From an uncultured Bacteroidales bacterium (lineage in GTDB: Bacteria; Bacteroidota; Bacteroidia; Bacteroidales; UBA932), in assembly GCA_944323845.1 (NCBI GenBank), contig CALUUA010000004.1, positions 62,001-126,000 of the forward strand: a stretch of 64,000 nt of DNA. The letters are read 5' to 3'. Positions 1,397 through 46,669 of this stretch are shown here, piece after piece. A program made the translations under genes and the position numbers. How positions within the stretch are numbered: the first letter of the stretch is position 1; each line of letters starts with the position of its first letter. The notes under the pieces are model-generated. The model did no database searches. It saw nothing but the letters and a program-made list of their open reading frames with translations, and was not told the origin of the DNA.

Positions 1397-4300
1397 ATGA
1401 AAAAGAACCCGATCATACTTGCAACTCTCGCCGTAATTGCCGGCCTGCTCGCACCTGTCTGCGGGGCGGACGCTCTGGAACGCATGTATCTGGAGCAGAT
1501 TTCGGTCGCCGAGGGGATGCCTCATACTGATGTGAATGCCATAGCCGGGGATCCTGAAGGCTTCCTCTGGTTCGGGACGTTTTCCGGACTGTGCAGGTAT
1601 GACGGCAGGAGGATGGAAGTGTTCAATGTCACTAATTCGATGCTGGAAAGCTCCAGAATAAAGTCCCTCCATGTTTCTGATGACGGACTTCTGTATGTCG
1701 GCACTGAGACCGGAGGCCTTTCTGTATATGATACTGCCGGGGACCGCTTTCTGATGACAGTGCCCGTCCCTCTGAACAACGTGAACAGGATTTTCAGCTA
1801 TAAGGGAAAGATATGCCTGTGTACCGACGCCGGAGTCTCGTTCGTGGAATTTTCAGACGGGAACTATGTCATGGAGTCCTACAGCCTCGGTTCCGGAGTC
1901 ATGGGCGGCTGTCCTATCCCGGGGAAAGGTCTGGCTTTATGTACACCTTCCGGACTGTTCCTTGCCTCGGAAAGCACTGGGGGGGGGTATTCATTCCGCA
2001 AGGTCCTGCCCGGGATTTACTGCTGCGAGGCTGTCCTTCCGGACGGACCGGACGAATTGCTGCTGGCAGGATATGACGGCTGCTTCAAGGTAGACACGCG
2101 GGACTGGTCCGCCGAAAAGTTAGACGGGCGGGAAGCCTTGTCCCTGTATAAGGCGGCCGACGGGAAAATATGGGTCGGAACCAGAAAGGACGGCATGCTG
2201 TGCTATGACAAGGAGCTGAATCTCCTGCATGACTCGGGCCCGGACAGGAAATACGGATTCAACAGCTGCGACATCACCTCTTTCTATATGGACGGCTCGT
2301 CCGTGCTGTGGATCGGCACCATAGGCAACGGCTGCTACAAGAAAATCCGCCATACCGATGACTTCCGTCTTTATTCCATTACCGGCTCCGCCGGCAATGA
2401 CCATATAATATGCATGTATGCGGACAGCCGGGACAGGCTGTGGATATCCACCAGAGACGGCGCCCTGTACGTCATGTGCGGGGAACAGGTCACACGTTTG
2501 GATGAAAGATCATTGTCGGTCTTCGGCGGGATGCCGGTTTCGTTCATATACGAGGATGACTTAGGCTCCATCTGGTTCGGGGCGTGGACACACGGCCCTC
2601 ATGTCATTTCCGGCAAGAATCTGGACCGGGCTGTCGCCGGTCTTCCGTTCGGCTTTTCCGGATTCCCCGGACACCCGCTGCTGAATGCCGCCAGCATATA
2701 TATGGCCGATACGGACGATTCCGGGAACATCTGGTTCAGTACGAATTACGGCGTATTCAGATATGAGGGCGGTTCCGACAGGATTTCCGGCCGGCCGGAC
2801 AGGTACGCCGGGAAGTGGACCTGCTTTACGAGCGATCCTGCCGACTCCTCATCTCTGACGGACAATTTCTGTACGGATATCTTCGCCGAGACATATGACG
2901 GCCGCCGGTATGTGTGGGTGGGCTCCCGTCTGGGTCTTACCAGATTCATCTGCTCGTCGGAAGGCGATGTGCAGTCCATATCCAGAATCTATCCCTCCAG
3001 AAGCGAGAACGGCCTGTCCGGCGATTACATATCTGTTATACACAGGGACAGGGAAGATTCACTCTGGATAGCGACCCTCGGAGGCGGACTTAACAAGCTG
3101 TCCGGAGACAGGAGCGCGCCGGAACTGCATTTCAGACACTATGACAGCGAAGATTTCCCGTTCGGCACCTGCGAATTCGAGTCCCTGCAGGAAGATTCCT
3201 CCGGCGTCTTCTGGATAGGAAGCGCCAGAGGGCTGGTCAGATTCGATCCCGGAAGCGGACAGGTGAAGACTTTCTCGAAGAAAGACGGGCTTCAGAGCGA
3301 TGTTTTCAAGATATGGGCCTCCACAGCATTCTCTGACGGCAGGATGGCCTTCGGCGGTCCTGAAGGTTTCAACATTTTCGACCCGTCCGGAATCAGCCGG
3401 AACGAGATACCGCCCGTCACCGTGCTGACAGGGCTGAGGATAAACGGCAGGGACGTGATGCCCGGGGATACGGTCGGGGGAAAGGTCGTCTTGTCCGGAC
3501 CACTGAGACACAGCAGGTCGATAACACTGCCCCACGACTGCAACAGCCTGGCATTCCGTTTCGCCGCCCTTCATTACGAGCATCCGGAAATGAACTCTTT
3601 CCGCTTCCGTCTGGAAGGTCTGGACAACATCTGGCACTATTCGTCCGACTCGAACGCTTCCGCCTCTTACCTGAACCTGAAACCGGGCAGATACGCTTTC
3701 ACTGTCTACGGAGCGAACAGCGACGGCATCTGGGGAACCGTCCCTGCAAGACTGGCTGTCACCATCCGTCCGCCTTTGTGGAAGAGTACTGCCGCCTGCA
3801 TCATTTATCTCCTGTCTGCCATGGGGCTGCTGTTCTTCCTGAAGACCGTCATCCAGCGTCGGAACAGACAGCATTACGAACTGGAAATGGAGCGCAAGCT
3901 CCGCATGGAAGAAGCCCAGCGCAACGAAAACGAAATGAAATTCCATACGGACTTCCTCCACGAAATCAAGACCCCACTCACCCTGATTTCCGCCCCTGTG
4001 GATGAGCTGCTCGAAAACCACAGCCTCGGGAAAACTACCAGAGAAAGGCTGCAACTGGTGCGCAGGAGTGCCATGATACTCCAGAAACTTCTCGACACAG
4101 TCACGGATTTCCGTAAATACGACAACGGAAAATCCCGCCTTCATGTCACGGAAGTGGATTTCTGCCGCTTTGTCGACGAGTCGGTCCGGCTTTTCGTCCC
4201 GTATATGAAAAACCGCGGCATATCCTTCTCGATTGAGCTTCCTAAGACTCCTGTCATGCTTTTCATCGACAGGATGGAAATGGAAAAAGTCCTGATGAAC

Positions 4301-5518
4301 CTGATGTCGAACGCCATAAGATACTCTCCCGAGACCGGAGGCAGGATCAGTGTGTCCGTCACGACGGACAATTCTGCCGGCTCAGCTCCGGTATTGCTGT
4401 CGGTCAGCAATACCGGTATGGGCATACTGCCCGAAGACATCGACAGGATTTTCGACAGATTCCGTCAGGGTTCTAACAATACTTCGAGGAAAGGCATGGG
4501 AATAGGTCTGGCAATATCGAAACACGTGGTGGAACTTCACGGAGGCGAAATATACGCCGAATCCGTGCCCGGGCAGAAGACGGTCTTCCATGTACGCCTG
4601 CGCACAGGCTGTTCGCATTTCCGGGAGGAAGACATAGACAGGAACGTCCGGGACAGTGACGGCATTTCCGGCTATGAAGACATATCGGACGTCATGGCAG
4701 GCCTGGCATCGAGACTGCCGCAGGCGTCCGACCGCACATATACGGTTCTGGTGGCGGACGACAGTCCAGACCTGCGCAGCTACCTCGGACAGCTGCTTTC
4801 GCTCAGATACAATGTCATAATCGCGTCGGCCGGCAGGGAGGCGTATGAAAAAGCCATCGCAGATCAGCCCGATGTCATCATTTCCGATGTGATAATGCCG
4901 GGAATGGACGGTATGGAACTTTGCTCGGCCATAAAGAAGAATCCTGACACTTCCCACATACCTGTAATCCTCCTTTCCGCGAGAAGTCTTCCTGTGGACA
5001 AGGTGGAAGGATTCGACGCCTTGGCCGATGAATACATGACAAAACCCTTCCAGTCCGAGGTCCTGCTGTCGCGTATAGCTAACCTTATCCGCCAGAGAGA
5101 GAGCATGAGGGATGCTTTCAGGAAAAACATAGTGCTGGAACCGTCTTCCGTCTCCGGAACCACATCGGACGAGAGATTCATGAAGAATGTCATTTCGGTC
5201 ATAGAGGAGCATGTGTCGGAACCGGAATTCGGAGTGGACGAGCTTTGCGAGGAAATCGGGGTCTCCCGCCCTGCCCTTTACCGGAAGATAAAATCCCTTA
5301 CCGGTCTTTCCGCCATCAGGTTCCTGCGGAGCATCCGTCTCAAGCGGGCTGCCCAACTCCTCGCATCGGATGAAAACATGTCTGTTTCATCGGTAATGTA
5401 TGCCACGGGATTCAGTAACATGTCCTACTTTTCCAGAATATTTTTCGACGAATTCCATGTCCTGCCGAAAGACTGGTACGGCCGGAGCCATGCCTCCGAC
5501 GGCTCGCTGCCCGGTTGA
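1397..5518 (+). CDS. Hybrid two-component system sensor/regulator (HTCS) of the PUL
   Basis: This 1373-residue protein has the complete HTCS order. A signal peptide (1-24) is followed by a periplasmic beta-propeller of Reg_prop repeats (about 30-690; many LW-x-G-T-x-x-G strands), a Y_Y_Y domain (about 731-790) and one membrane helix (about 798-818). Then come a HisKA domain with phospho-acceptor His855 (LHEIKTPLT), an ATPase domain with N box (NAIRYSPE) and glycine box (GMGIGLAIS), a receiver domain (about 1117-1235) with phospho-acceptor Asp1164 (SDVIMPGMDG), and an AraC-type DNA-binding domain (about 1266-1365). Such proteins bind a breakdown product of the target glycan in the periplasm and switch on the neighbouring susCD genes directly. 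The 19-bp motif at 5563 and 12185 is its likely binding site, which is an inference. Confidence 0.95.
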   Translation: MKKNPIILATLAVIAGLLAPVCGADALERMYLEQISVAEGMPHTDVNAIAGDPEGFLWFGTFSGLCRYDGRRMEVFNVTNSMLESSRIKSLHVSDDGLLYVGTETGGLSVYDTAGDRFLMTVPVPLNNVNRIFSYKGKICLCTDAGVSFVEFSDGNYVMESYSLGSGVMGGCPIPGKGLALCTPSGLFLASESTGGGYSFRKVLPGIYCCEAVLPDGPDELLLAGYDGCFKVDTRDWSAEKLDGREALSLYKAADGKIWVGTRKDGMLCYDKELNLLHDSGPDRKYGFNSCDITSFYMDGSSVLWIGTIGNGCYKKIRHTDDFRLYSITGSAGNDHIICMYADSRDRLWISTRDGALYVMCGEQVTRLDERSLSVFGGMPVSFIYEDDLGSIWFGAWTHGPHVISGKNLDRAVAGLPFGFSGFPGHPLLNAASIYMADTDDSGNIWFSTNYGVFRYEGGSDRISGRPDRYAGKWTCFTSDPADSSSLTDNFCTDIFAETYDGRRYVWVGSRLGLTRFICSSEGDVQSISRIYPSRSENGLSGDYISVIHRDREDSLWIATLGGGLNKLSGDRSAPELHFRHYDSEDFPFGTCEFESLQEDSSGVFWIGSARGLVRFDPGSGQVKTFSKKDGLQSDVFKIWASTAFSDGRMAFGGPEGFNIFDPSGISRNEIPPVTVLTGLRINGRDVMPGDTVGGKVVLSGPLRHSRSITLPHDCNSLAFRFAALHYEHPEMNSFRFRLEGLDNIWHYSSDSNASASYLNLKPGRYAFTVYGANSDGIWGTVPARLAVTIRPPLWKSTAACIIYLLSAMGLLFFLKTVIQRRNRQHYELEMERKLRMEEAQRNENEMKFHTDFLHEIKTPLTLISAPVDELLENHSLGKTTRERLQLVRRSAMILQKLLDTVTDFRKYDNGKSRLHVTEVDFCRFVDESVRLFVPYMKNRGISFSIELPKTPVMLFIDRMEMEKVLMNLMSNAIRYSPETGGRISVSVTTDNSAGSAPVLLSVSNTGMGILPEDIDRIFDRFRQGSNNTSRKGMGIGLAISKHVVELHGGEIYAESVPGQKTVFHVRLRTGCSHFREEDIDRNVRDSDGISGYEDISDVMAGLASRLPQASDRTYTVLVADDSPDLRSYLGQLLSLRYNVIIASAGREAYEKAIADQPDVIISDVIMPGMDGMELCSAIKKNPDTSHIPVILLSARSLPVDKVEGFDALADEYMTKPFQSEVLLSRIANLIRQRESMRDAFRKNIVLEPSSVSGTTSDERFMKNVISVIEEHVSEPEFGVDELCEEIGVSRPALYRKIKSLTGLSAIRFLRSIRLKRAAQLLASDENMSVSSVMYATGFSNMSYFSRIFFDEFHVLPKDWYGRSHASDGSLPG

Positions 5519-5562: not shown

Positions 5563-5609
5563 CTGAACGATTTGTGCCGGTAGGCCATGGCGGCCAATGT
5601 TTATATTTG
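5563..5609 (+). promoter_or_regulatory. Candidate HTCS operator plus -7 box before the three-module enzyme
   Basis: The sequence CTGAACGATTTGTGCCGGT (5563-5581) is followed 39 bp after its first base by TATATTTG (5602-5609), a perfect -7 box. The same arrangement with CTGAACGATTCGTGACGGT recurs at 12185. There is no TTG at the normal -33 distance, as expected for a promoter that depends on an activator. The start codon of the gene is 60 bp further on. Confidence 0.65.
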
Positions 5610-5668: not shown

Positions 5669-8600
5669 ATGAAAAAATCCCATGCCGCAAGGCTTTTCGG
5701 CCTTCTTTTCCTGATTCCTCTGCTTTCATGCAGGGGCGAGCATATGGTGGAAATCAATGCTGATCCTTCCGTGAAGGATTATACTCCCGTGGTAAGGCAG
5801 ATCCTTGAACAGCATCCGCGGGGTCATGTCACCCTGAAATTCTCTCCCGGCACATTCCGTTTCTTCCCTGAAGAAGCATTCGGCGAGTACATGACCGTCT
5901 CGAACAACGACAACGGCATGAAACGGATCATATTCAGGCTTAAAGGCATGAAGAATGTCACCGTAGAAGGCGATTCTTCCGATTTCGTGTTCCACGGAGC
6001 CGTTATCCCGTTCGCCGTGACGGACTCACGCCATGTCAGGATATCCGGAATATCCATAGACTATGATGCCCCGTTCACCCTTGAAGGCACGGTGACGGCC
6101 ACGGACAAGCAGGCGGGGACATTCACTCTGAAAATAGACCCGGCAAACAAATACAGGATAATGGATGAACGCTTTTATTTCCTCGGCTACGGCTGGGAGT
6201 CGCGGCTGGGTGAAAACGTCGTCTTCGACCCTGAAACGAAATCCCCTTACTACAATGCTGCCCGCTACCAGCATTGGCCTGTCCACCAGTTTTCTGCCCG
6301 TGAAGTAGGGGAAGGTCTGGTGGAGTTCGGGAATGTGTATGCTGCCGAGCTTCCTCCCGTGGGCAGCGTATGGGTGGACAAGGGTGTGCATCCGCAGGAC
6401 AGATATTGTTCCGCCATTGTCCTGAGCGACAGCGGGGACATAACAGTGGAGGATGTCCATATCTATCACAGCGGGGCAATGTCGCTTGTGGCCCAATATT
6501 GCGAGGATGTGACCGTAAGGAGGTTCGACACCTCGCGCAGGCCCGGCTCTTCGCGGATGGTCACCTCGTCGGCTGACGCGACGCATTTCGTGGACTGTTC
6601 CGGAGATATCCTGATCGAGGACTGCCGCTTCGAAAGCATGCTTGATGACGCCGTAAACATACACGGTGTCTACATGAAGCTGGAGAAAGTGCTGGGCCGG
6701 AGGGAATTTGCCGCATCATTCGGCCACAGGCAGCAGACCGGGAACCGTTTTGCCGACAAGGGAGACGTCATCCTGTTCATGGACAGGTCTACGATGCAGC
6801 CTGTGGGGACTGGCAGGGTCAGGGAAATCAGCCGCGTAAACGAGAACCGGTACGTCTTCCGGACTGATTTTCCTGTAGAAACTCTGCAGGATTCCGGAGA
6901 ATATGCGATAGAAAATATTTCGCGCGGAGCTTCTGCCGTCATCAGGAACTGCTCTGTAAAATACAACAGGGCGCGGAGCCTCCTTCTTTCCACTCCCGGA
7001 CAAGTCCTTGTGGAGGATTGTTCTTTCGCTTCCATGATGGCGGGGATAGTGATCTGCGGAGATGCCAATTTCTGGTTCGAGTCGGGCAGGACGCGCGATA
7101 TAGTGATAAGGAACTGCGAGTTTCAGGATCTGGCGCGCGGCGGAAACGGCCCGCAGGCTGTCCTGCAGATTGACCCCATGATTCCGGAAGAGGCGCGGAC
7201 GACGGACTTCTTCTATCACGGTCATATTTCATTCACGGGGAACACTGTAAGGACATTCGATTCGCAGATAATCTATGCCCGGAGTGTCGCGGATCTGGAT
7301 ATCAGGGATAACGTGTTCGTGGATTCCGGCACGTGGAAGCCGCTTTACGGCGATCAGGCTGCGATAGATGTCGAGTATTGCGGGAACGTCACGATAAGCG
7401 GAAATGATTTCTCGGGATGGAAAAAAGACGCCTGTATAAGCGTGCATGATTGTATCGGAGCCGATATCCATGCTCCGGGGATAAAGGTTACGGGCTGGAC
7501 GAGGCTGCCCCGGACCTCCGGTTCGGAGGCAATGGAAGATGCCATTGCCGCCTACGTCAGCGAGGCGGCAGCCGACAGTATCCCTATTCATTCCCTGATG
7601 GTCGTACAGAACGGAAGCGTCACAGCGGAGGCGTATCTCGACGGATGGACAGCCGCTGATCCTCATCGGATGTGGTCTGTGAGCAAGACTTTCACTTCCC
7701 TCGCGGTGGGTTATGCAGTGGAAGAAGGTCTGCTGGCCCTTGATGAGAAGATAGCGGCTATCTTTCCCGAAGAAGCGGCTGCGGTGCTGGACACGATGGA
7801 AAACGCGCTGTTCCGGAAACACCTCATGGATGCGGACGTGCGGGACTTTCTGGTCATGGCCACAGGGCAGACGGAAGATCCCACCTATGTGCTCGGCGCC
7901 CGATATGCCCCATACGGGCTGACCGGGATAGACAGTCTCGATGTCTTTATGGAAAGACATGGCGGAAGTCTGATTGCGGACTTTTTCTCTGTGCCGTTCA
8001 CAGCTGAACCGGGAACGGTGCGGTGCTATAACAGCATAGCCACCTATATTCTTTCGGCGGCCGTGCAGAAAGTCTCCGGAGAAAAGCTCGTCGATTACCT
8101 CTATCCCCGCCTTTTCGAGCCTCTCGGCATAGAGAAACCGCGTTGGGATGAGGTGCAGGGCATAAACTGCGGGGGTTGGGGGCTGTGGCTGAAGCCTGAA
8201 GACATGGCCCGGGCAGGTCAGGCCATGCTCTGCGGCGGACGTTATGCAGGCCGGCAGGTGATTCCTGAGAGGTATCTGGAAGAGGCGGCGAAGAGTTTCT
8301 TCACCTGGGACTTGCCGACGGGAAAAGAATCCGATACGGACAGGTACCATGCCACAGGATATGGTTATCAGATATGGCGGAACCCCGATTCCTTCTATGC
8401 CGCAGGCATGTGGGGACAGTTCATCTATGTGTTTCCGGAGCTGGATGCGGTAGTTGTGGCTACGGCAGATGTCAGGGATGACGACAGCCGGGAGTCCGCC
8501 CTGATATGGAAGCACATCGTTCCTGTGTTGAAAGCGGAGGCCGGGGCCGGACAGCGGCCTTTGCGCTGGGTCCTTTCAGGCCCCCATTCCATAACATGGA

Positions 8601-10492
8601 ATGTCCGGCCCCCCGCCCCGGGCCATCGCGACCATTTGGAAATGAGCGGCGAGAGAATATCAGTGATATATGAGTACGGTGTGGATGATTCCGGAGCCTT
8701 TTCCGTGGACAGGAATGTCATCTGGCCCCTGCTCCGGAAATATCCGAACGATACATACGGCCACACGTCCATGCGCTTCAGCCAGGATTTCCTCTCCGGC
8801 GTGACGGCGGACGGAACCCCTATCGGACCCGGAACAGCCTCAAGTCTCTCTCTGGACGGAAAACTTAACGTGGAAAGCCGCCATGGAGCCTTGAAAGTGT
8901 CCCGCTGCCTCTTCCCCTCCACTGTCCACGCTGCAGTATGCGAAGAATATGTCCTGACCAACATTTCAGACAGTCCTGTCACGGTGAGGATACCTGCCGC
9001 AAGATACAGTCATGTCACCGAGGCCGGAGTGTACGGAGCATACACCCTTGTCGCCCGTACATCGCATTCCTCCGACATGGAGGTGAAGCTGGAGCCTTCC
9101 GCTTCGGCAAGATTCTGCGCCTGCATCATCGGCAGCCGTTATCCCGAAGTGGAAGAATATATAGACGTCCCGTATGAAAAGAAGCTGAGGGACGGATTCG
9201 TGGAGGAAGTATGCACGAACCTCGTCCTCGACACCCCGGACCCGATACTGAACACGATGTTCGCCTTTGCCAAGATAAGAGGTTCCGAAAGCCTGTTCCG
9301 GACCAAAGGCGGGCTGACCCACAGTCCGGGAGGCGGATATTACTATTCGGCCGTCTGGGCCAACGACCAGGCCGAGTACATCTGCCCGTTCTTCCCCTTC
9401 CTCGGATATGCCGGGGGTAACGAGGCTGCCATGAATGCCTTCCTGCATTTTGCGGAATATATGAATGACGCTTACGCCCCAGTCCCGAGTTCTCTGATAG
9501 CCGAATTTACGGATATATGGAACGGCTGCGGAGACAGGGGAGATGCCGCGATGATAGCATACGGAGCCGGAAGATATGCCCTTGCCAGAGGCGATGCCGA
9601 TGCAGCACAGCGTCTGTGGCCTCTGATCAAATGGTGCCTGGAATATTGCCGCCTCCGCCTGACACCGGACGGAGTGGTGGCCTCGGATACGGACGAGCTG
9701 GAGAACCGTTTCCCTTCAGGGGATGCGAACCTGTGCACTTCGTCCCTGTATTATGATGCCCTGCTCTCGGCCGCCCGCATTGCAGAGGAATTCGGAGAGG
9801 ACAGCGACTACATGGAACGGGCTCATGAAATGAGAGCTTCGATAGAAAAATATTTCGGCGCGGACGTGGCAGGATTCAGGACATACCGGTATTATGACGG
9901 GAACGAACTGCTCCGCTCATGGATATGCATCCCTTTGGTCATGGGCATATATGACAGGGCCCCGGGGACAGCCGACGCCCTGCTTTCCGACAGGCTCTGG
10001 ACAGAAAACGGGATCCTTACCCAGGAAGGCTCAGATGTGTTCTGGGACAGGGCTACCCTGTATGCGTTGAGGGGTATTCTTGCTGCCGGCAGGACTGAGG
10101 ATGCCCTGTCCCGCCTGCAGCAATATTCTTCCCGCCGTTTGCTCGGAGAGCACGTACCCTATGCCATAGAGGCATGGCCGGAGAATGACCAGCGTCATCT
10201 TTCGGCAGAAAGCGGACTGTATTGCAGGGTTTACACCGAAGGCCTTTTCGGCTTCCGGCCGGAGGGCTTCAGGAGCTTTTCCCTGACGCCGCGTCTGCCT
10301 TCGTCATGGAAATCCATGTCCCTGAAGAAAGTCCATGCATGCAGCGACACTCCTTATGATATCGAGGTGCGCAGACTCCGTGGAGACAGGATTTCCGTTT
10401 CCGTGTCCATGAACGGAAGGCGGATATTCAGGGAATCTGTCCGGGACGGCGGGACTGTCGAGGTCTCCCTTGCCGGTGCGGATGAGATCTGA
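5669..10492 (+). CDS. Three-module glycan enzyme: GH110-like + serine hydrolase + six-hairpin glycosidase
   Basis: This 1607-residue lipoprotein (lipobox Cys21, LLSC) contains three enzyme-like modules in one uninterrupted frame. Residues about 24-611 are a right-handed beta-helix closely resembling the stand-alone GH110-like protein at 18389, with the shared motifs SADATHFVDCSG and MLDDA-x-N-x-HG; in the GH110 family acidic residues in this region are catalytic. Residues about 620-960 are a class-C beta-lactamase-like serine hydrolase with S670-x-x-K673 and Y787-N-S, possibly an esterase or deacetylase. Residues about 985-1577 resemble an (alpha/alpha)6 barrel glycosidase of unassigned family. 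The start at 5669 was preferred to an upstream in-frame start at 5597, which precedes the promoter -7 box. The substrate is probably a terminal alpha-1,3-galactose glycan carrying acyl groups; the acyl part is a guess. Confidence 0.8.
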   Translation: MKKSHAARLFGLLFLIPLLSCRGEHMVEINADPSVKDYTPVVRQILEQHPRGHVTLKFSPGTFRFFPEEAFGEYMTVSNNDNGMKRIIFRLKGMKNVTVEGDSSDFVFHGAVIPFAVTDSRHVRISGISIDYDAPFTLEGTVTATDKQAGTFTLKIDPANKYRIMDERFYFLGYGWESRLGENVVFDPETKSPYYNAARYQHWPVHQFSAREVGEGLVEFGNVYAAELPPVGSVWVDKGVHPQDRYCSAIVLSDSGDITVEDVHIYHSGAMSLVAQYCEDVTVRRFDTSRRPGSSRMVTSSADATHFVDCSGDILIEDCRFESMLDDAVNIHGVYMKLEKVLGRREFAASFGHRQQTGNRFADKGDVILFMDRSTMQPVGTGRVREISRVNENRYVFRTDFPVETLQDSGEYAIENISRGASAVIRNCSVKYNRARSLLLSTPGQVLVEDCSFASMMAGIVICGDANFWFESGRTRDIVIRNCEFQDLARGGNGPQAVLQIDPMIPEEARTTDFFYHGHISFTGNTVRTFDSQIIYARSVADLDIRDNVFVDSGTWKPLYGDQAAIDVEYCGNVTISGNDFSGWKKDACISVHDCIGADIHAPGIKVTGWTRLPRTSGSEAMEDAIAAYVSEAAADSIPIHSLMVVQNGSVTAEAYLDGWTAADPHRMWSVSKTFTSLAVGYAVEEGLLALDEKIAAIFPEEAAAVLDTMENALFRKHLMDADVRDFLVMATGQTEDPTYVLGARYAPYGLTGIDSLDVFMERHGGSLIADFFSVPFTAEPGTVRCYNSIATYILSAAVQKVSGEKLVDYLYPRLFEPLGIEKPRWDEVQGINCGGWGLWLKPEDMARAGQAMLCGGRYAGRQVIPERYLEEAAKSFFTWDLPTGKESDTDRYHATGYGYQIWRNPDSFYAAGMWGQFIYVFPELDAVVVATADVRDDDSRESALIWKHIVPVLKAEAGAGQRPLRWVLSGPHSITWNVRPPAPGHRDHLEMSGERISVIYEYGVDDSGAFSVDRNVIWPLLRKYPNDTYGHTSMRFSQDFLSGVTADGTPIGPGTASSLSLDGKLNVESRHGALKVSRCLFPSTVHAAVCEEYVLTNISDSPVTVRIPAARYSHVTEAGVYGAYTLVARTSHSSDMEVKLEPSASARFCACIIGSRYPEVEEYIDVPYEKKLRDGFVEEVCTNLVLDTPDPILNTMFAFAKIRGSESLFRTKGGLTHSPGGGYYYSAVWANDQAEYICPFFPFLGYAGGNEAAMNAFLHFAEYMNDAYAPVPSSLIAEFTDIWNGCGDRGDAAMIAYGAGRYALARGDADAAQRLWPLIKWCLEYCRLRLTPDGVVASDTDELENRFPSGDANLCTSSLYYDALLSAARIAEEFGEDSDYMERAHEMRASIEKYFGADVAGFRTYRYYDGNELLRSWICIPLVMGIYDRAPGTADALLSDRLWTENGILTQEGSDVFWDRATLYALRGILAAGRTEDALSRLQQYSSRRLLGEHVPYAIEAWPENDQRHLSAESGLYCRVYTEGLFGFRPEGFRSFSLTPRLPSSWKSMSLKKVHACSDTPYDIEVRRLRGDRISVSVSMNGRRIFRESVRDGGTVEVSLAGADEI

Positions 10493-10551: not shown

Positions 10552-12132
10552 ATGAAACGCATCATATCATCATTGTTGGCCGTACCGGCCATCTTCATGG
10601 CTTTGGCATCATGCGACAAGGAGCAGGCTGGACCGAAGCCGCAGAGACCGGCAGGCTATGTCCCCGACGACCCTGATTATGAAATCTACGATGTGTCCCC
10701 GAGGGCTGAACAGGGCTGGGACATCTATACAGGCACGGGATACAGATACGGAGCGTCCGTCATAGTGAATGACGACAGTTCCGTGGATCTGTGGCTGGCG
10801 GCCCCGGGCGGAACCTTCGCCGAAGGCACGGATACATATCTTTCGGAGGAACAGGAGGCGCAGCAGCTCGGTACGGAGCATGTTTTCGCCCAATATTTCG
10901 AGTTCGGGGAGGAGTTCGTATGCGTGAGCCTTTATTGCCCGTCATGGAGCAGTTCCACGCAGTGCTTTACCCTGTCCATGTACAGCTGGGATACGGACTA
11001 TAGCACCACTGTCGGGAATGCTCCGCTTTCCACTGTCAGGTTCGAGAACTACAAGGACAATTCCTGGCTGAAGATCTATGCCGATGAGGCTCAGACCGGA
11101 ACCGTGAAATTCCCGGCCGGGCAATATCTGTGGGTGATGTCGGACGGTACGGAGACATCCGGAATCTGGAAATGCACGGATCCAGGCTCCAATGCCGGGA
11201 CGAATGCCGTATCCTATATCGACGGCGTCAGGATAGATGAAGAAGCCGTGATAGGCGGGCAGACAGTGACTCCGGGGCAGTTCCGCAGCATGATCTGCAC
11301 GGTGGACGGGTCTACCGATGTCTATTGGGACAAGATAGTCTACATGCATTCCGAAGACGGCGGCCGGAGCTGGTCTGAAGAAAAGGCGTCGCTTATCCCT
11401 ACGGAAGGAAGCCGTGATGCCCTGTCCTGCTGTGATCCGGGAGTGGCTGCATGGGGAGGCTATTATTATGTCGGCTATACTTCCACGGAAAACACTGCCG
11501 GCCGCGAAAACCATGTCTATATGGCGAGGAGCGCCGGACCGGCCGGACCATGGGAAAAATGGAACGGTTCCGGCTGGGGAGGGAACGACCCGCAGCCGGT
11601 GGTCACATTTGACGGGGCCAGAAGCGGTTTCGGCGCCGGCGAACCGTGTATCGTGGTCCTGAACGGGACTGTCTATCTCTACTATTCTTGGAATGACTGG
11701 AATACCGTGACCACGAGGGTGTCCACGGCTCCGGCAGATGATCCGAACTGGCCGGCGCGGCTGGAAAGCCACGGTACGGTGATAGACAAGACGGGCACTT
11801 CGAATCCCGACCATACCGATGTGAAATACATCGAGAGAAGCCGCAAGTTCGTGGCCGTATATACAGTGATGCGGGATACGGATGACAGTTATCTGCAGCT
11901 TTGGGAGTCGGAGGACGGGATAAACTTCGTTATGGGAGGCCGTATCGGCGGAGAATTGGAGCCCGGTATCATAAATGCCGGGATGAGCGGCGATGCTGTC
12001 GGGCATGTACGCCCGGATTCCGTCCAGTATCTGTGCTATGCCCACAGCGATGCCCCGAGGGAATGGGGGCACTGGGCCACATGGTGGTCTCCGTTAGTCT
12101 GGGAGAAATCAGTGTCAGGCGAAGTCGAGTGA
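10552..12132 (+). CDS. Beta-propeller glycosidase-like lipoprotein
   Basis: The 526-residue product has a lipoprotein signal (ALASCDKE, Cys near residue 21). Residues about 230-520 contain repeated strands of the five-bladed propeller kind seen in GH43/GH117-type enzymes: W-D-K-I-V-Y-M-H-S-E-D-G, a D-P-G-V segment, V-Y-M-A-R-S-x-x-P-x-G-P-W, GAGEPCIVV, and Y-L-Y-Y-S-W. Acidic residues at blade starts would form the active site, but I cannot assign a family. The N-terminal 200 residues look like a separate beta-sandwich domain. The gene lies 59 bp after the three-module enzyme with no promoter between them, so the two are probably co-transcribed. It could be a binding protein that has kept only the fold. 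Confidence 0.65.
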   Translation: MKRIISSLLAVPAIFMALASCDKEQAGPKPQRPAGYVPDDPDYEIYDVSPRAEQGWDIYTGTGYRYGASVIVNDDSSVDLWLAAPGGTFAEGTDTYLSEEQEAQQLGTEHVFAQYFEFGEEFVCVSLYCPSWSSSTQCFTLSMYSWDTDYSTTVGNAPLSTVRFENYKDNSWLKIYADEAQTGTVKFPAGQYLWVMSDGTETSGIWKCTDPGSNAGTNAVSYIDGVRIDEEAVIGGQTVTPGQFRSMICTVDGSTDVYWDKIVYMHSEDGGRSWSEEKASLIPTEGSRDALSCCDPGVAAWGGYYYVGYTSTENTAGRENHVYMARSAGPAGPWEKWNGSGWGGNDPQPVVTFDGARSGFGAGEPCIVVLNGTVYLYYSWNDWNTVTTRVSTAPADDPNWPARLESHGTVIDKTGTSNPDHTDVKYIERSRKFVAVYTVMRDTDDSYLQLWESEDGINFVMGGRIGGELEPGIINAGMSGDAVGHVRPDSVQYLCYAHSDAPREWGHWATWWSPLVWEKSVSGEVE

Positions 12133-12262: not shown

Positions 12263-13567
12263 ATGAAAAAGATCCTTTCATTATTGACCGTTTGCGGTCT
12301 TTTCTCATTGGCTGCATGCCAGCCTGACGATGCGGAGACTATAGAGAAGGATTTCGATTTCGGCGCCAGCGTGACTACCGTCAATGTCGGCGAGACCGTC
12401 ACCTTCACGGACTATTCCATAAACGTGCAGTCCCGTAAATGGACTTTTCCTGACGGAGAACCTGCCACTTCTTCCGAACCTGTGGTGGATGTAGTCTTCA
12501 CTACCCAAGGGACCAAGGATGTGACCCTTACCGTCACCTATTCCGACGGCACTGAAGACAAAGGGAATATTTCCATTACTGTCCTGAATCCTCTGACAGC
12601 CGAAATACAGGCGGACGGCCTGACTCCGAAAGGCTGCGCGAAAAAAGGTCAGGAAATAACTTTCTCTCTGGACGGAGTAGTCGGCTCTCCTGATTCTTAC
12701 GAGTGGACTTTCCCGGGCGGTACTCCTGCCACTTCTTCCGAGGCTTCCCCTAAGGTGGTGTGGATTGACCAGATAAATGACGTGGAGGTTACCTGCAAGC
12801 TGACCCGTTCTTCCGACGGAGCCACCGCTACGCTGACAAAGCATATCATAGCCGGAAATTATCCGATGCTTGTCTTCGACGAGGAGTATAATGTGGATGT
12901 TTTCGGATTTGAAGTAGGGGAGAATCTTGATAAAGCTTGGTATAACTGGGGAAATTTTCCTGTCAATGATCCGAGCATGGCTGCAGGAGAATATCCTGAC
13001 CTAATGACTGTAGTAGACGGGGGCTTTAATTCCGATAAATGTCTGCGTTTTGATTTGTCCAAAGGGGCGTTCAATGCTTCGCAAATGCCGGACTGCACCT
13101 GGATATTGGGTCACAGGAAAAACTGGTCTAATAATCCATGGCTTACAGTGGGCCAGAAATACGAAGTCAGCATTTCATTCAAGGCAGATGTGGATAACAT
13201 AGCTAAAATAGCCGCGTGCCATTGGCTGAAAGTAAATGCTTGGGTTTTGGATGAAGAGGATCCTCTCCGTGGACTGAATAGCAAGGTTGAATGGTCGAAT
13301 GTGTTTGACGGCGACCCATTTGAGGCTAATGCCGAAGTTGAATTGTTCAGTCAGGATGTATGGTTGGCACATATTAAAGAAGATCCGAATGCTTTTGATT
13401 TGCTGGAACCTGACTGGAAAACATACACTTATGAATTTACGGTTCCTGACACGCTCGGAAAGAGTGACGGCGAAGTCTTCAAGAATTGCTATGTGCTTAC
13501 AGGATTGGTAAGTATAGGTGCCGTTATCTGGATTGATAACGTCCAGATTAACCTTATCGAAGAATAG
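12263..13567 (+). CDS. PKD-domain surface glycan-binding lipoprotein
   Basis: This 434-residue lipoprotein (LAACQPDD, Cys near residue 20) has two PKD repeats at about residues 36-112 and 115-195, each with the W-T-F-P-x-G core. A C-terminal domain of about 230 residues is predicted to be a beta-sandwich carbohydrate-binding module. It sits directly before susC, where many PULs place other surface glycan-binding proteins after susD. Together with SusD it probably captures the glycan on the cell surface. From about 12880 on, base composition is visibly more AT-rich and codon choice differs from neighbouring genes, so the C-terminal domain may have been exchanged. The promoter with the shared operator lies just upstream. 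Confidence 0.75.
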   Translation: MKKILSLLTVCGLFSLAACQPDDAETIEKDFDFGASVTTVNVGETVTFTDYSINVQSRKWTFPDGEPATSSEPVVDVVFTTQGTKDVTLTVTYSDGTEDKGNISITVLNPLTAEIQADGLTPKGCAKKGQEITFSLDGVVGSPDSYEWTFPGGTPATSSEASPKVVWIDQINDVEVTCKLTRSSDGATATLTKHIIAGNYPMLVFDEEYNVDVFGFEVGENLDKAWYNWGNFPVNDPSMAAGEYPDLMTVVDGGFNSDKCLRFDLSKGAFNASQMPDCTWILGHRKNWSNNPWLTVGQKYEVSISFKADVDNIAKIAACHWLKVNAWVLDEEDPLRGLNSKVEWSNVFDGDPFEANAEVELFSQDVWLAHIKEDPNAFDLLEPDWKTYTYEFTVPDTLGKSDGEVFKNCYVLTGLVSIGAVIWIDNVQINLIEE

Positions 13568-13594: not shown

Positions 13595-16500
13595 ATGTTG
13601 AAAAAATGCATTGCCCTGCTCTGCTTGATGCAGGCAGGGCTTGCTGTTTCCGCACAGCAGATTACTGTCACCGGCAGGGTGACCGACAGTTCCGGCGATC
13701 CTATTCCGTGGGCGGATGTCTACCAGAAAGGCACCAGTACCGGAACCGTGACTGATGACGACGGCTCCTACACTATAAAGGTTTCTTCTTCTGAAGCCGT
13801 GCTTGTGGCCTCTTTCATAGGGTATCAGGACTCCGAAGAGATTGTAGGCGTCAGGTCTGTCGTGAATTTTTCATTGCAGTCGGATTCGGAAATGCTGGAT
13901 AATGCCGTGGTCATCGGATACGGTACGGCACGCCGTCAGGACCTTACAGGATCCGTGGCTTCCATCAATCCCGAAAAACTGGACAATCAGGTGATTTTCT
14001 CCGTGGACGATGCCCTGAAGGGCGGAGTGGCGGGACTTATGGTCTCGTCTACCAGCGGACAGCCGGGTGCGGCCACGAAGATGCTCATCCGCGGGGCCAG
14101 CTCTCTTTCCGGCTCTACGGGACCTCTGGTCGTCGTGGACGGCTTCCCGCTTAACGGTGTGACTACTTCTTCCGGAATGGGTATGGGAAATCTGGACTCC
14201 CAGATGAGCGGACTTTCCATGATCAACCCTGAAGACATCGCATCCATAGAAGTGCTTAAAGACGCATCCTCTACGGCCATTTACGGAAACAGGGGAGCCA
14301 ACGGTGTCATCATGATCACCACGAAGAAAGGCCGGGGTTCTTCGGGCCGCATCCAGTACAACGGCTATGTCAGCATGCAGATGCTCCCGAAAAAACTCGA
14401 CATGCTGGACTTCAAGGGCTATGCTTCTATGATGAACGAACTGAATCCTGCATACCAGCTCTTTTCCGATGCGGACGGAAATCTGCGGAACTTCGATTTC
14501 GACAAGATCGAGAGCATCGACTGGCAGGACAGGCTCTATCGTACAGGATTCATCCATAATCACAACCTGTCTATCCAGAATGCCACCGACAAGACGAATT
14601 TCCTGCTGAGTGCATCTTTCATGCAGAACGAGTCGATAATAATTTCCACTGACTGGCAGAAATTCACGGCCAAGGCCAATGTGGACCATAAGTTCACCGA
14701 CAAATTCCGTCTGGGAGTGGACATAAACTACAGCAGGATCACCGATGACGGGGTGCCGACTTCCGGAGGCGAGGGTACGGCCATAGGTACAGTGATGAGC
14801 GCCCTGACCACCCAACCTTTCGACCTGCGGGATCCTGATACTCAGGCTTACTTCAGAAGAGCCGGACTGGAACAGTACCAGATAGACCAGTTCAATACTT
14901 CGAACAGGCAGAATCCGGTGACCATGGCGAACGACATCACCATGCTCAAGATTCTGAACAGGACCATTGCGAACGCATACATGGAGTATGACATCATCGA
15001 CGACCTGACCCTGAGGGTGACAGGCGGAGCCGACATGTATTCGCTCGAAGACAAGCAGTTCTATCCGGTCAGCACGCCGAGAGGCTATCTTTACAATTCG
15101 CAGGCGTGCATGGCCAATATCTCTACCTTCGGCTGGCTGAACGAGAACACCCTGACCTGGTCCCCGACTTTCGGAAAGCATAAGCTGAATGTCATGGCAG
15201 GTCTCACCGAGCAGGGGTCGAGGTATTACTATACCGCCACCGATGCCTCTTCTTTCGCGAACGAGACTCTCGGATTCAACAATCTGCAGATGGCCACCGA
15301 CTTCAACTCCTACTCGAACACGAGCACTACGGCCATGATGTCCTTCATCTTCCGCGGACATTATTCGTATGATGACAGATACATCGGCACATTCACTTTC
15401 AGGAGGGACGGTACTTCGGCCTTCGTGAAGAACAAGTGGGGTTCGTTCTATTCCGGCGCCATTGCATGGAATGCAAAGGAAGAGGAATTCCTGAAGCATG
15501 TGAATACGGTCAGCACCTTGAGACTGAGGCTGTCCGTCGGAGAAGTGGGAAACTCCAGCGTGCCGACGTCCGGTTCTTTCGCACAGCTGTATAACACGAA
15601 TACGGCATTCGGCACGGATCTGAGCATAGGACAGTCGCCGATTACCCTTGCGAATGAGGATCTGACCTGGGAGAAGACTCTGGAGTACAATCTCGGGCTG
15701 GAGCTCGGACTCTGGAACGAGAGGCTTCATTTCGATCTGGATCTGTACCACAAGACTACGAGGGACCTGCTGCTGGAAGCTCCGGTACTGAATATTTCCG
15801 GCTATACCAAGGCATGGCAGAACATAGGCAGCATCAGGAACATGGGCGCCGAGCTGTCGATGTCCGCTGTCCTGATAGACAAGCATGACTTCCAGTGGAC
15901 CATGAATGCCAACATGACCAGAAACGTGTCCAAAATCCTTCATCTCGGACAGAACGGGGCTCCGATTTATCTCGGAATCACGTGCCTTAACGGTCAGAAT
16001 GCCGTCATCCTGAGGGAAGGCGGCAGCGTGGGTGAACTTTTCGGCTACCGTGCCATCGGTCTGTACCAGCTCGATGAATTCGATGCGGTTCCGAGTACAT
16101 CCGATCCGGATGAGATGGTCTATACCCTTAAATCGGGCATCCCGGGCCAGGGCGGGGAGCAGCCGGGTTCGCTGAAACTTTACGACAAGAGCGGCAATGG
16201 CAAGATAGACGATGCCGACAGGGAGGTGATAGGCAATTTCCTTCCCGATGTCTACGGAGCGTTCTCCACGACCTTGAACTACAAGTCCTTCAACCTTTAC
16301 CTCGGCTTCCAGTATTCCATAGGAAACGATCTGTACAATGCCAATTACAGCATGATAGGCTCTTTCCAGGGGAATGCATCGAACCAGCTGGCGACATGGA
16401 ACGACAGATGGACGGAAAGCAACCAGTCTTCGTCCCAGTATGCCCAGATTCCTGACGGTCTGGTGTCATCGGCTTTCGTGGAAGACGCCTCATATCTGCG

Positions 16501-16747
16501 TTTTGCTACGGCGCGCCTGACCTATACGCTGCCGCAGAAGGTATTGCGCCGGACGAAGCATCTGGAGTCTTGCAAGTTCTACATATCGGCGGACAATATC
16601 TGGGTGTTCACGAAATATTCGGGATACGATCCGGAAGTCGGCATCAGCCAGAATTCCGCGGCTGCCATACTGTCTCAGGGCTTCGATTACGGCAACTTCC
16701 CGAAGGCCAGGACTTTCACTTTCGGGGTTAACCTTTCGTTCAGATAA
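13595..16747 (+). CDS. SusC-family TonB-dependent outer-membrane transporter
   Basis: This 1050-residue protein has a signal peptide ending at VSAQQ. It is followed by a carboxypeptidase-regulatory-like beta-sandwich (about 25-95), a TonB-box-like segment (DNAVVIGYG), a plug domain (about 115-235, including the SusC-typical IEVLKDASSTAIYGNRGANGV) and a 22-strand barrel to the C-terminal aromatic FGVNLSFR. It imports oligosaccharides across the outer membrane using TonB energy. The gene starts 27 bp after the PKD lipoprotein and is followed 17 bp later by susD, so it belongs to one operon. Length and domain order are normal for the family, and no frameshift is seen. Confidence 0.97.
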   Translation: MLKKCIALLCLMQAGLAVSAQQITVTGRVTDSSGDPIPWADVYQKGTSTGTVTDDDGSYTIKVSSSEAVLVASFIGYQDSEEIVGVRSVVNFSLQSDSEMLDNAVVIGYGTARRQDLTGSVASINPEKLDNQVIFSVDDALKGGVAGLMVSSTSGQPGAATKMLIRGASSLSGSTGPLVVVDGFPLNGVTTSSGMGMGNLDSQMSGLSMINPEDIASIEVLKDASSTAIYGNRGANGVIMITTKKGRGSSGRIQYNGYVSMQMLPKKLDMLDFKGYASMMNELNPAYQLFSDADGNLRNFDFDKIESIDWQDRLYRTGFIHNHNLSIQNATDKTNFLLSASFMQNESIIISTDWQKFTAKANVDHKFTDKFRLGVDINYSRITDDGVPTSGGEGTAIGTVMSALTTQPFDLRDPDTQAYFRRAGLEQYQIDQFNTSNRQNPVTMANDITMLKILNRTIANAYMEYDIIDDLTLRVTGGADMYSLEDKQFYPVSTPRGYLYNSQACMANISTFGWLNENTLTWSPTFGKHKLNVMAGLTEQGSRYYYTATDASSFANETLGFNNLQMATDFNSYSNTSTTAMMSFIFRGHYSYDDRYIGTFTFRRDGTSAFVKNKWGSFYSGAIAWNAKEEEFLKHVNTVSTLRLRLSVGEVGNSSVPTSGSFAQLYNTNTAFGTDLSIGQSPITLANEDLTWEKTLEYNLGLELGLWNERLHFDLDLYHKTTRDLLLEAPVLNISGYTKAWQNIGSIRNMGAELSMSAVLIDKHDFQWTMNANMTRNVSKILHLGQNGAPIYLGITCLNGQNAVILREGGSVGELFGYRAIGLYQLDEFDAVPSTSDPDEMVYTLKSGIPGQGGEQPGSLKLYDKSGNGKIDDADREVIGNFLPDVYGAFSTTLNYKSFNLYLGFQYSIGNDLYNANYSMIGSFQGNASNQLATWNDRWTESNQSSSQYAQIPDGLVSSAFVEDASYLRFATARLTYTLPQKVLRRTKHLESCKFYISADNIWVFTKYSGYDPEVGISQNSAAAILSQGFDYGNFPKARTFTFGVNLSFR

Positions 16748-16764: not shown

Positions 16765-18345
16765 ATGAAAAAATTACTGATAATATCGGTGTCTCTGATG
16801 TGCGCGGTCTCTTCATGCGATTTTCTGGAGACCAAGGTGGAGAGCAATATCACCACCCAGAACTTTTTCCGGACTACGGAGGATTTCGATATGGCCCTGA
16901 CGGGCATATACTATACATTCACTTCGGTAGAATGGGACAATCAGCACAGGTACGGAAATTATTTCACGGGCTTCATGTACTGGGGCAGGATAGGTACGGA
17001 TGAATGTTATGTGCCGTCAGCCAATAACGGCGAGGACATGATAGGCTACTATACCTACACTCCGGAGCATCTTTTCGTGGAGAAAGTCTGGTTCATGCAG
17101 TATTTAGGCATCCAGCGGGCGAATGTGGTCCTGAACAGGCTGGCGCAATATACCGGGGATGCCATTTCCGAACAGGACCGGAACCGGATAGCGGGAGAGG
17201 CGTACTTCCTGAGGGGATGGTTCTATTTCCAGCTGGCGAGGTATTTCGGCGAAGTGCCTCTGGTGCTTAAGGAGACTACCGATCTGGATGAACTGGATAC
17301 CAGAAAGGCATCTCTGGCCGAAGTTTACGACAGGGTGATAAAGGATTATGAAGAGGCGGAAAAACTCCTGCCGGAGACGAACACTGTCGGTCACGCCTAC
17401 AAGATGGCGGCCACGGCCCTCAAGGCGAGGGCCTACCTCCAGATGTCGGGCGAGCCGCTCCGCGACCCGTCGGCCGCCTCCCTTGCCGCCGCAGCCTGCA
17501 GGACAGTGATCCAGAGCGGCAGATTCCACTTGGTCGAAGACTATTTCTCGCAGTTCGACGGCCTGCACGAGCACAACAGCGAATACATCTTCGATGTGGA
17601 GTTCGACAACTCCCACAGCAATTCCTTCTACGGCGGCCAGGTCGGGACTACGGACGGGATGCCGCATCCTGACGAAATCTACTGGACCCAGGTCAGGGCA
17701 TTCCCGGAAATGTACAGGAAATTCGAGGAAAACGACCTCAGACGCGGTGCCGTGGACTACGGCGGACATGTGGAACAGAACCCGCAGACCGGCAAGATGG
17801 AAATCATATACGGCGACGAGAACTACAAGAACGACTACTGGGTCTACAAGTTCCGTCACCCTCTCGAAAGAGCCGACAGGGGCAGCAGCTGGGCGAACTG
17901 GTGCAACAACATCAATTTCCCTATCATTCGCTACGCCGATGTCCTGCTGATGCTTGCAGAAGCCGAATGGAGGGCGGACGGATCCCCGTCATCCGAGGCC
18001 ATAGAATACGTGAACAAGGTCCGCCGCAGAGGCTATGGCGTCCCTATGGACACCGAAGACTCTGATGTGGATTATTCCCTCTCGGACGAGCCGTTCGAGG
18101 ATTTCATTCTGGAGGAAAGAAGCCGCGAACTCTGTTTTGAAGGCCATCGCTGGGCTGACCTCGTGCGTTTCGGAAAGCTGCAGGAAGCCTACCGCTCCGT
18201 AGGTCTCGACCCGGACTGGCTCCTGACCCCGTATTATGACGTCTTGAGGCCGAACTGTCAGGAAAAACACAGTATTTTCCCTATCCCGCAGTCCGTGATA
18301 GACGCCTCGCACGGAGCCATAAAGCAGAATCCTCTTTGGGAATGA
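16765..18345 (+). CDS. SusD/RagB-family outer-membrane lipoprotein
   Basis: The 526-residue product carries a lipoprotein signal (SSCDFLET) and the family hallmark NFFRTTEDFDMALTGIY near the N-terminus. TPR-like helices follow (residues about 80-260, including AEAYFLRGWFYFQLARYFGEVPL), and the C-terminal RagB/SusD domain has L-x-F-E-G-H-R-W-x-D-L-V-R-F. SusD forms the lid over SusC and delivers bound glycan to it. The preceding susC partner and the following GH110-like gene support a role in alpha-galactosylated glycan uptake. The start ATG at 16765 is preceded by a purine-rich stretch. Confidence 0.97.
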   Translation: MKKLLIISVSLMCAVSSCDFLETKVESNITTQNFFRTTEDFDMALTGIYYTFTSVEWDNQHRYGNYFTGFMYWGRIGTDECYVPSANNGEDMIGYYTYTPEHLFVEKVWFMQYLGIQRANVVLNRLAQYTGDAISEQDRNRIAGEAYFLRGWFYFQLARYFGEVPLVLKETTDLDELDTRKASLAEVYDRVIKDYEEAEKLLPETNTVGHAYKMAATALKARAYLQMSGEPLRDPSAASLAAAACRTVIQSGRFHLVEDYFSQFDGLHEHNSEYIFDVEFDNSHSNSFYGGQVGTTDGMPHPDEIYWTQVRAFPEMYRKFEENDLRRGAVDYGGHVEQNPQTGKMEIIYGDENYKNDYWVYKFRHPLERADRGSSWANWCNNINFPIIRYADVLLMLAEAEWRADGSPSSEAIEYVNKVRRRGYGVPMDTEDSDVDYSLSDEPFEDFILEERSRELCFEGHRWADLVRFGKLQEAYRSVGLDPDWLLTPYYDVLRPNCQEKHSIFPIPQSVIDASHGAIKQNPLWE

Positions 18346-46500: not shown

Positions 46501-46669
46501 GTTCTATGATTACAGGCCGGATGAGTTCAACACTGTCTTCACGTATATCCAGAATCTGCAATATGTCTATGATGCCGGAGGGGACAAGGCTCTGGCCGAC
46601 GAGCTTGATGCCAGGATTACTGCCCTGATCGACCCGACCGGAGAACTTTCGGCAGGGCAGGAAAGTTAG
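43553..46669 (+). CDS. DUF2723 multi-pass membrane protein, possible glycosyltransferase
   Basis: The 1038-residue protein has about 10-12 membrane helices in its first 600 residues and a soluble C-terminal part (about 690-1038) that includes TPR-like helices. The N-terminal loop TIEPTASFWDCGEFIASSYKLEVGHPPGNP is the mark of DUF2723, a family related to GT-C protein O-mannosyltransferases. The Asp/Glu in this loop resembles the catalytic acidic residue of GT-C enzymes. Protein glycosylation in the periplasm is a plausible but unproven role. It is the only gene in its unit. Confidence 0.88.
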   Translation: MDNRKFTLWNRISAVFVLVVSAVTYLLTIEPTASFWDCGEFIASSYKLEVGHPPGNPVFQLIARFFTMFADNMHAAVAVNVMSALCSALTIFFLHLTIVFLAKRVIKPDADGKYSVPRAIAVYGSGIVGSLAYCFSDTFWFSAVEGEVYAMSSLFTAMVFWAMTKWYEQADTPYANRWIVLISFLMGLSIGVHLLNLLTIPALVFMFYYRKREDGHYSFWEYVKIFLLSAVILAVILFGIIPYLPKFAAYTDLFFVNVLGLPFNTGAAFFMIALLAACFWGLFHTMKKKAVLANTLLLCFTVIVIGFSIFSVVIIRSAAKTPTNEYQPDNPFTLIRYLGREQYGSNPILYGQYFDAPYEVVTPKYWAPMGDRYVHADSPGELKYPAEGKMLFPRMWAGGDQRYIDFYESYMNGKGTPVPGAEHKKPTFGTNLYFFLDYQLNWMYWRYFMWNFAGRQNDIHSPSPGEIFAGNWESGIGFIDKARLGDQTDAPDYLKNNKGKNHYYMLPLLLGLIGLFFQFSRDKRGTWLTFLLFFMTGIAIVIYLNQPPYQVRERDYAYAGSFYAFSIWIGLAVAAIYSFIEDLLAGKTGNASAQTVRTAAASVVSLVCLGVPALMAQQNWDDHDRSHRRTAVELARNYLNSVGPDGILITHGDNDTFPLWYAQEVENVRTDVRICNTSLLGTDWHIDQMKYACNESAPLPLTVGMDQYLYGTNELVFIYDVRDTVIPIKDVMRVFKHPRAKVELTSGKMVDYIMSRKISVPVNKENVIKYGILDEKYAGMIPDEIVLEMPESKTFITKPELFLLDLLSNYQWDRPINMLSMGGDLDIGQKSYLMYEGFSYKLVPIKGPMSSSEPGLTDTEDLYRKMTEVFSWDALSRDDYFVDYQNLYTFCGVMSQRNLFLNAAEKMMDEGRSDRALEMLDMCERNVPEYNFPLDMTYLGFSNEYMVLRMISLYYDLGQGDKARSMAARFADELMDSAGFFLSFYDYRPDEFNTVFTYIQNLQYVYDAGGDKALADELDARITALIDPTGELSAGQES

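Follow-up and report, generated by a model that had tools for sequence, protein, structure and literature searches.

A candidate three-module lipoprotein joining GH110, a serine hydrolase, and an unnamed six-hairpin-type module in a Cryptobacteroides polysaccharide utilisation locus

In the 64,000-nucleotide stretch of DNA that we analysed (hereafter the window), a single uninterrupted frame of 1607 codons plus a stop (5669-10492, forward strand) encodes, in this order, a signal peptide, a GH110 module, a PF00144 serine hydrolase (SH), and a C-terminal module of 633 residues (CT). We read the product, with moderate confidence, as a membrane-anchored lipoprotein with several catalytic activities that belongs to a GH110-type polysaccharide utilisation locus, arose by in-frame deletion, and is predicted to carry out a three-step glycan degradation. 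The host is a Cryptobacteroides, a gut bacterium.

The frame is open throughout, as the first-pass annotation of this DNA had described it. The longest open reading frame starts at 5597; we preferred the start at 5669 because the lipoprotein-type N-terminus MKKSHAARLFGLLFLIPLLSC begins there. Inspection by eye identified a signal peptide (5669..5734, +) with the sequence LLSC and Cys21, which we take to be a lipobox, and the three-module lipoprotein is predicted to be surface exposed. The family searches that the annotation had called for placed modules 1 and 2 in GH110 and PF00144 through Pfam and the PDB, and gave no Pfam match for module 3. E-values as small as those given below exclude chance as the source of the domain matches.

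The origin of the frame was read from the junction between its first two modules (VTGWT/RLPR, 7487..7513, +), located by comparison with relatives. Five related genomes (G366, G632, G464 = L044, G499 = L045, and G593) have a GH110 gene and then an SH-CT gene, the latter running off the contig end in G499 and G593. G464 is, by identity of its DNA, Candidatus Cryptobacteroides intestinigallinarum, and it is listed in the same genus as the window, which places the window in Cryptobacteroides. Where the gap between the genes was read (L017, L044, L045, and L089), the GH110 protein ends in NPYFYGN, with two extra residues in L044, and the second gene opens on a lipoprotein-type signal peculiar to it and continues with an LPRxEGSxEMKAALEAYV-like sequence. 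The window reads IKVTGWT-RLPRTSGSEAMEDAIAAYV across the junction, unbroken. What is missing is exactly the GH110 tail, the stop, the spacer, and the second signal, and the frame is kept. On these comparisons, the GH110-SH join looks recent and the SH-CT pair is the older of the two. The fusion had been singled out as unusual; this stands for the GH110-SH join, which is peculiar to this genome, but not for the SH-CT pair, which is common to the five relatives.

It had also been proposed that the same architecture be sought in other genomes. Beyond the window's own genome, no whole-protein match appeared among the matches listed for 400 genus genomes and no whole-junction match among those listed for 398 family genomes, and the three-part join is known, among the matches listed, from one assembly. 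Several weak matches to the junction query start before the junction (e.g. in G369, G151, G064, G189, and G220); no GH110 was found in the other frames of G220 and G369. A read-through of the stop between GH110 and CT in G204 (open frame 1621) was considered and rejected, as the stop is an ordinary TAA followed by a new start and signal. The GH110 frame in G204 is 618, and the CT gene there bears an alpha/beta hydrolase.

A join present in one of 400 genus genomes and one of 398 family genomes, among the matches listed, in a group where the five relatives that possess both parts encode them in two genes, could also be an assembly artefact, the true genome having GH110 and SH-CT as two genes. 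We give this a slim chance. The join is in frame, the lost stretch coincides exactly with tail, stop, spacer, and second signal, mature sequence lies on either side, and the whole sits within a 136-kb contig. All three modules are also constrained: they are 68-77% identical to their counterparts in the relatives, and comparison with four relatives gave dN of 0.18-0.24 and dS of at least 1.65, or saturated, in every module, which shows purifying constraint that is alike in all three. A mis-assembled junction is accordingly unlikely, and an in-frame deletion is the origin that we prefer.

The surrounding genes, all on the forward strand, form a polysaccharide utilisation locus. Upstream lies a hybrid two-component sensor (HTCS; 1397..5518), identified by Pfam and kept beside the relatives' genes. 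Downstream are a GH43-like protein (10552..12132), a weak match for which GH43 was found in five of six homologues (best E 2.9e-07) and no PDB relative was found by sequence; a PKD-domain lipoprotein-like protein (12263..13567; Pfam); a SusC/RagA-type TonB-dependent transporter (13595..16747) and a SusD-type lipoprotein (16765..18345), both identified by Pfam and NCBIfam; and a second GH110 (18389..20242; Pfam). The order HTCS, GH110, SH-CT, GH43-like, PKD, SusC, SusD is common to the relatives within their fetched stretches. Outside the locus, the window encodes a 1038-residue protein (43553-46669) with a TMEM260-like O-mannosyl-transferase domain (PF11028).

The assignment of module 1 (residues 21-611; 5729..7501, +) to GH110 was borne out, and domain searches do not place it elsewhere. 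Pfam found GLAA-B barrel I (E 1.5e-18, 67.2 bits against a cut-off of 28), GLAA-B barrel II (E 2.4e-07, 31.3 bits against 28), and Beta_helix (E 3e-12, 46.9 bits against 25.9), and residues 21-586 match GH110 chains in the PDB (9beh, E 4e-89). Asp303, Asp326, and Asp327, which we assign as catalytic, align with Asp321, Asp344, and Asp345 of PdGH110B, and each is Asp in 22 of 22 aligned sequences. The acid and base roles of the PdGH110B aspartates are known (PMC7939477). The copy at 18389 is indeed a single-module protein, stand-alone and 617 residues long, and 55% identical to the fused GH110. Two further adjoining GH110-type genes occur in the window's genome (G000:C2:138345-141624; L003 and L004); they share 50% and 26% identity with the fused one. 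Elsewhere (L153:1861-4890, in G042), a sodium:neurotransmitter (SNF) symporter and a GH110 module follow one another in a single open frame, possibly a fusion and possibly a chance joining of frames.

Module 2 (SH, residues 612-960; 7502..8548, +) matches the Pfam family Beta-lactamase, PF00144, at residues 635-935 (E 3.3e-24, 86.1 bits against a cut-off of 27), and PF00144-type hydrolases in the PDB match residues ~640-940. Its motifs are Ser670-x-x-Lys673, Tyr787-Asn-Ser, and Gly913-x-x-Gly916-Gln917, and the motif residues, including the Ser670, Lys673, and Tyr787 that had been reported as intact, are present in 10 of 10 aligned sequences. The description of this module as class-C beta-lactamase-like holds for the PF00144 fold family and its intact motifs, but not for class C itself, since the class C model (NF033085) reached 15.2 of 415 bits, under its curated cut-off, and the nearer named relatives are of the 6-aminohexanoate-dimer hydrolase type, along with other PF00144 serine hydrolases. 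The name 3-succinylated cholic acid synthase (NF045925), a bile-acid succinyl transferase, was likewise rejected at 158.4 of 800 bits, under its curated cut-off. A structure model of SH-CT had pLDDT mostly of 25-60 across SH and was set aside.

SH is promiscuous in its choice of fusion partners across these genomes. The partner of an SH-type domain is GH43 in L093 and L155, an epimerase-type domain in L092, and a DPPIV/S9 peptidase in G074 (L154:3102-6011); in L091, SH is joined to a GH110-like module. CT changes partners as well. CT and GH110 form a single frame in L081 and L082. In L080, CT is preceded by an alpha/beta hydrolase of the BD-FAE/carboxylesterase type (PF20434, E 5.6e-14) with a GSSAG motif, presumably the serine motif. 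In L086, it is preceded by a domain with a GNSF motif that matches PF16227 slightly below the cut-off (E 2.6e-05); this is a DUF4886 domain, which we take to be SGNH-like. That two other hydrolase folds occupy the N-terminal position of SH suggests that SH is an esterase and removes an acyl group. The CT genes of L084 and L085 have at that end 370-440 residues of a secreted-type domain with HExxH (HEFGH). The motif reads HEFGHGRGVPD in L084 and HEFGHARGVPD in L085, with a later CIMDYPYG; the domain is metallopeptidase-like by eye, and its Pfam matches are weak. This HExxH partner is not an esterase and does not fit a picture in which CT pairs with esterases alone, and its fusion to CT could hint at a glycopeptide substrate.

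It is possible, though in our judgement rather doubtful, that SH is an amidase, a peptidase-like enzyme, or an acyl-transfer enzyme like its PF00144 relatives, and not a carbohydrate esterase. Its closest PDB and NCBIfam relatives bear such names (6-aminohexanoate-dimer hydrolase and 3-succinylated cholic acid synthase), and both the S9 peptidase fusion of L154 and the HExxH-CT fusions, which could point to a glycopeptide, would fit. The carboxylesterase-type and SGNH-like proteins at the position of SH in L080 and L086 argue the other way, as do the fusions of SH to GH43 and the SASA carbohydrate-esterase proteins among the CT neighbours (below). We retain the esterase reading. That these parts are kept separate or recombined in relatives hints that they act on the same decorated glycan.

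Module 3 (CT, residues 975-1607; 8591..10489, +) was delimited from the Pfam scan, a structure model, and full-length relatives. Pfam gave no match for it at the usual threshold, and NCBIfam none of its own. Even a profile of 34 sequences had no meaningful PDB sequence match and none to GH94, GH65, or GH78; the profile came from 35 cluster representatives, with L063 dropped because its match contained a stop and the window used in place of L005. Weak matches to PF17389 (best E 0.0015) and PF03633 (best E 0.0039) turned up in six of the 34 members each, with an E of 0.1 as the limit. These results agree with the suggestion of the first-pass annotation that the last domain may be an unclassified family. 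An MGH1-like neighbour, compared with CT at the profile level, scored a probability of 2.4, with no relation seen.

An AlphaFold2 model of CT, built from five sequences, is of moderate quality (pLDDT 70.9, pTM 0.64). The model has the fold of the (alpha/alpha)6 superfamily, with two predicted beta domains flanking an (alpha/alpha)6 barrel, the N-terminal one a beta-sandwich. The six-hairpin, (alpha/alpha)6-type architecture proposed earlier is thus supported on the model, by Foldseek matches headed by the GH94 and GH65 phosphorylases (GH94, E 7.2e-15) and by a second structural aligner that gave Z of ~19-21, tied among rhamnosidases, GH94, and GH65. Of 12 acidic positions checked, 11 are kept in 34 of 34 sequences and the other, Asp1340, in 33; Glu1343, Glu1501, Glu1505, and Glu1514 are among the invariant acids.

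Within the genus, 10 of 101 genomes carry a CT relative, and within the family 38 of 299 do, where some matches are short. In the phylum, CT is full-length in 10 of 395 genomes, including the window's own, and 25 more have short, weak stretches. Microbulbifer taiwanensis (L048) also has a relative. The majority of CT relatives stand alone, at ~670-720 residues. CT is therefore an established yet unnamed glycosidase-like family, and probably an undescribed glycosidase family. In two loci, L083 (8224-12174) and L098 (8347-12297), CT is followed by ~630 residues in a shared frame of 1317 residues; in L083, this extension has a weak likeness to the (alpha/alpha)6 families C5-epimerase, GlcNAc 2-epimerase, and GH127.

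The rank of the GH94 and GH65 phosphorylases among the Foldseek matches, and the appearance of cellobiose 2-epimerases at Z of 16-17, raise the alternative that CT acts within the (alpha/alpha)6 superfamily not as a hydrolase but as a phosphorylase, a lyase, or an epimerase. We think this improbable. The Z scores are tied with rhamnosidases and other hydrolases, and many acidic residues are invariant. A phosphorylase is also less likely because CT appears to be secreted: on such lipoproteins, phosphate-dependent cleavage would be expected to waste the product. A glycoside hydrolase remains our preferred assignment for CT.

CT and GH110 tend to occur in the same genomes. In 61 genomes (G000-G060), CT was found in eight, a GH110 barrel in nine, and both in six; GH110 was thus present in 6/8 genomes with CT and 3/53 without it (Fisher p 3.8e-05, a test that ignores kinship and genome size). 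Without the window's genome, the same test gave p 2.0e-04. A GH110-like protein lies near CT in 15 of 39 distinct loci, or 13 without the weak cases L094 and L095, a share that is biased upward because the CT loci were partly picked for long reading frames (the raw count was 16/40; L044 and L090 are one record). The beta-helix beside CT in L094 and L095 was rejected as a strict GH110, as Pfam finds no GLAA-B barrel in it. Among 75 proteins neighbouring CT, six have GH110 barrels, four are GH97, and three are SASA-type esterases; GH97 adjoins CT in L130, L144, L084, and the Microbulbifer locus. Alpha-galactosidases occur in both GH97 and GH110, so CT tends to lie with alpha-cap-removing enzymes. 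CT nevertheless does not require GH110, because a GH110-like protein was not seen nearby in 24 of the 39 distinct loci and is a weak beta-helix in two of the other 15.

In the account that we propose, an in-frame deletion joined a GH110 gene to a neighbouring, pre-existing SH-CT fusion gene. The GH110 module would cut off a terminal alpha-1,3-galactose by inversion, with Asp326 as the acid and Asp303/Asp327 as the base. SH would use Ser670, Lys673, and Tyr787 to take an acyl (ester) group off the same branch, and CT, taken as a glycoside hydrolase with an (alpha/alpha)6 fold and outside the named families, would then cleave the uncovered sugar, with uptake of the product by SusC/SusD. The anatomy of the protein, its intact motifs, the constraint on its modules, the history of the join, and the linkage of CT with GH110 are observed, while the activities of the modules, their order of action, the substrate, and surface exposure are predictions. 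The order galactose, acyl group, next sugar is our guess, and stepwise removal is suggested indirectly by the domain swaps, the strongest clue to joint action, and by the co-occurrence of the parts. Plant, dietary, and host glycans are all possible substrates, as are glycopeptides. More tentatively, and with somewhat less than an even chance, CT may found an undescribed glycoside hydrolase family for an alpha-galactose-capped sugar guarded by acyl or peptide groups. The genus would then repeatedly rebuild this function as interchangeable fusions (with GH110, beta-lactamase-fold, alpha/beta, SGNH, and HExxH partners), of which the window would hold the most complete, able to degrade the glycan from its end in three steps on a single anchor.

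If these proposals are true, a natural set of fusions makes it possible to deduce, and then to test, what an unnamed glycosidase family acts on, the gene fusion of two secreted lipoproteins is seen next to its unfused relatives, and GH110, a family of interest for the removal of B and alpha-Gal antigens, joins the multicatalytic enzymes. In a search of open-licence papers, we met no GH110 fusion of this type and no paper treating GH110 together with Cryptobacteroides. Esterase-glycosidase fusions are already known; what is new is that these modules are combined, that the combination is built around the unnamed CT family, and that the fusion can be seen beside the unfused form.

Module 1 resembles the GH110 alpha-1,3-galactosidases (PdGH110B, 7jw4; GH110A, 9beh; alpha-1,3-galactosidase B, 8pvs) in its barrels, its acid/base aspartates, and its alignment over residues 21-586. 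Unlike them, it is joined to two more enzyme-like modules, and it lacks the C-terminal tail NPYFYGN conserved in its stand-alone relatives. SH shares S-x-x-K, Tyr, and G-x-x-G-Q with PF00144 serine hydrolases such as the 6-aminohexanoate-dimer hydrolase 4gb7 and NF045925 (PDB match E 5.3e-19), but it sits in a glycan locus, fused to glycosidases, and scores far under the NF045925 and class C cut-offs. The CT model has the three-part fold of GH94, GH65, and GH78-type enzymes (beta-sandwich, (alpha/alpha)6 barrel, and C-terminal beta domain), whereas CT is mostly 9-13% identical to them in structural alignment, and weak Pfam matches occur in a minority of its members. For the protein as a whole, the nearest comparison is with multicatalytic esterase-glycosidase enzymes of Bacteroidota loci, of which BeCE15A-Rex8A is an example (PMC8417218); fused acetyl-feruloyl esterases are also reported from such loci (PMC7110780). 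Like the window's protein, these have joined catalytic domains, an esterase with a glycoside hydrolase or two esterases, and are encoded in utilisation loci. The window's protein differs in having three modules, a GH110, a beta-lactamase-fold hydrolase, and a member of an unnamed glycosidase-like family, and it would be aimed at an alpha-galactosylated substrate in place of a xylan-type one.
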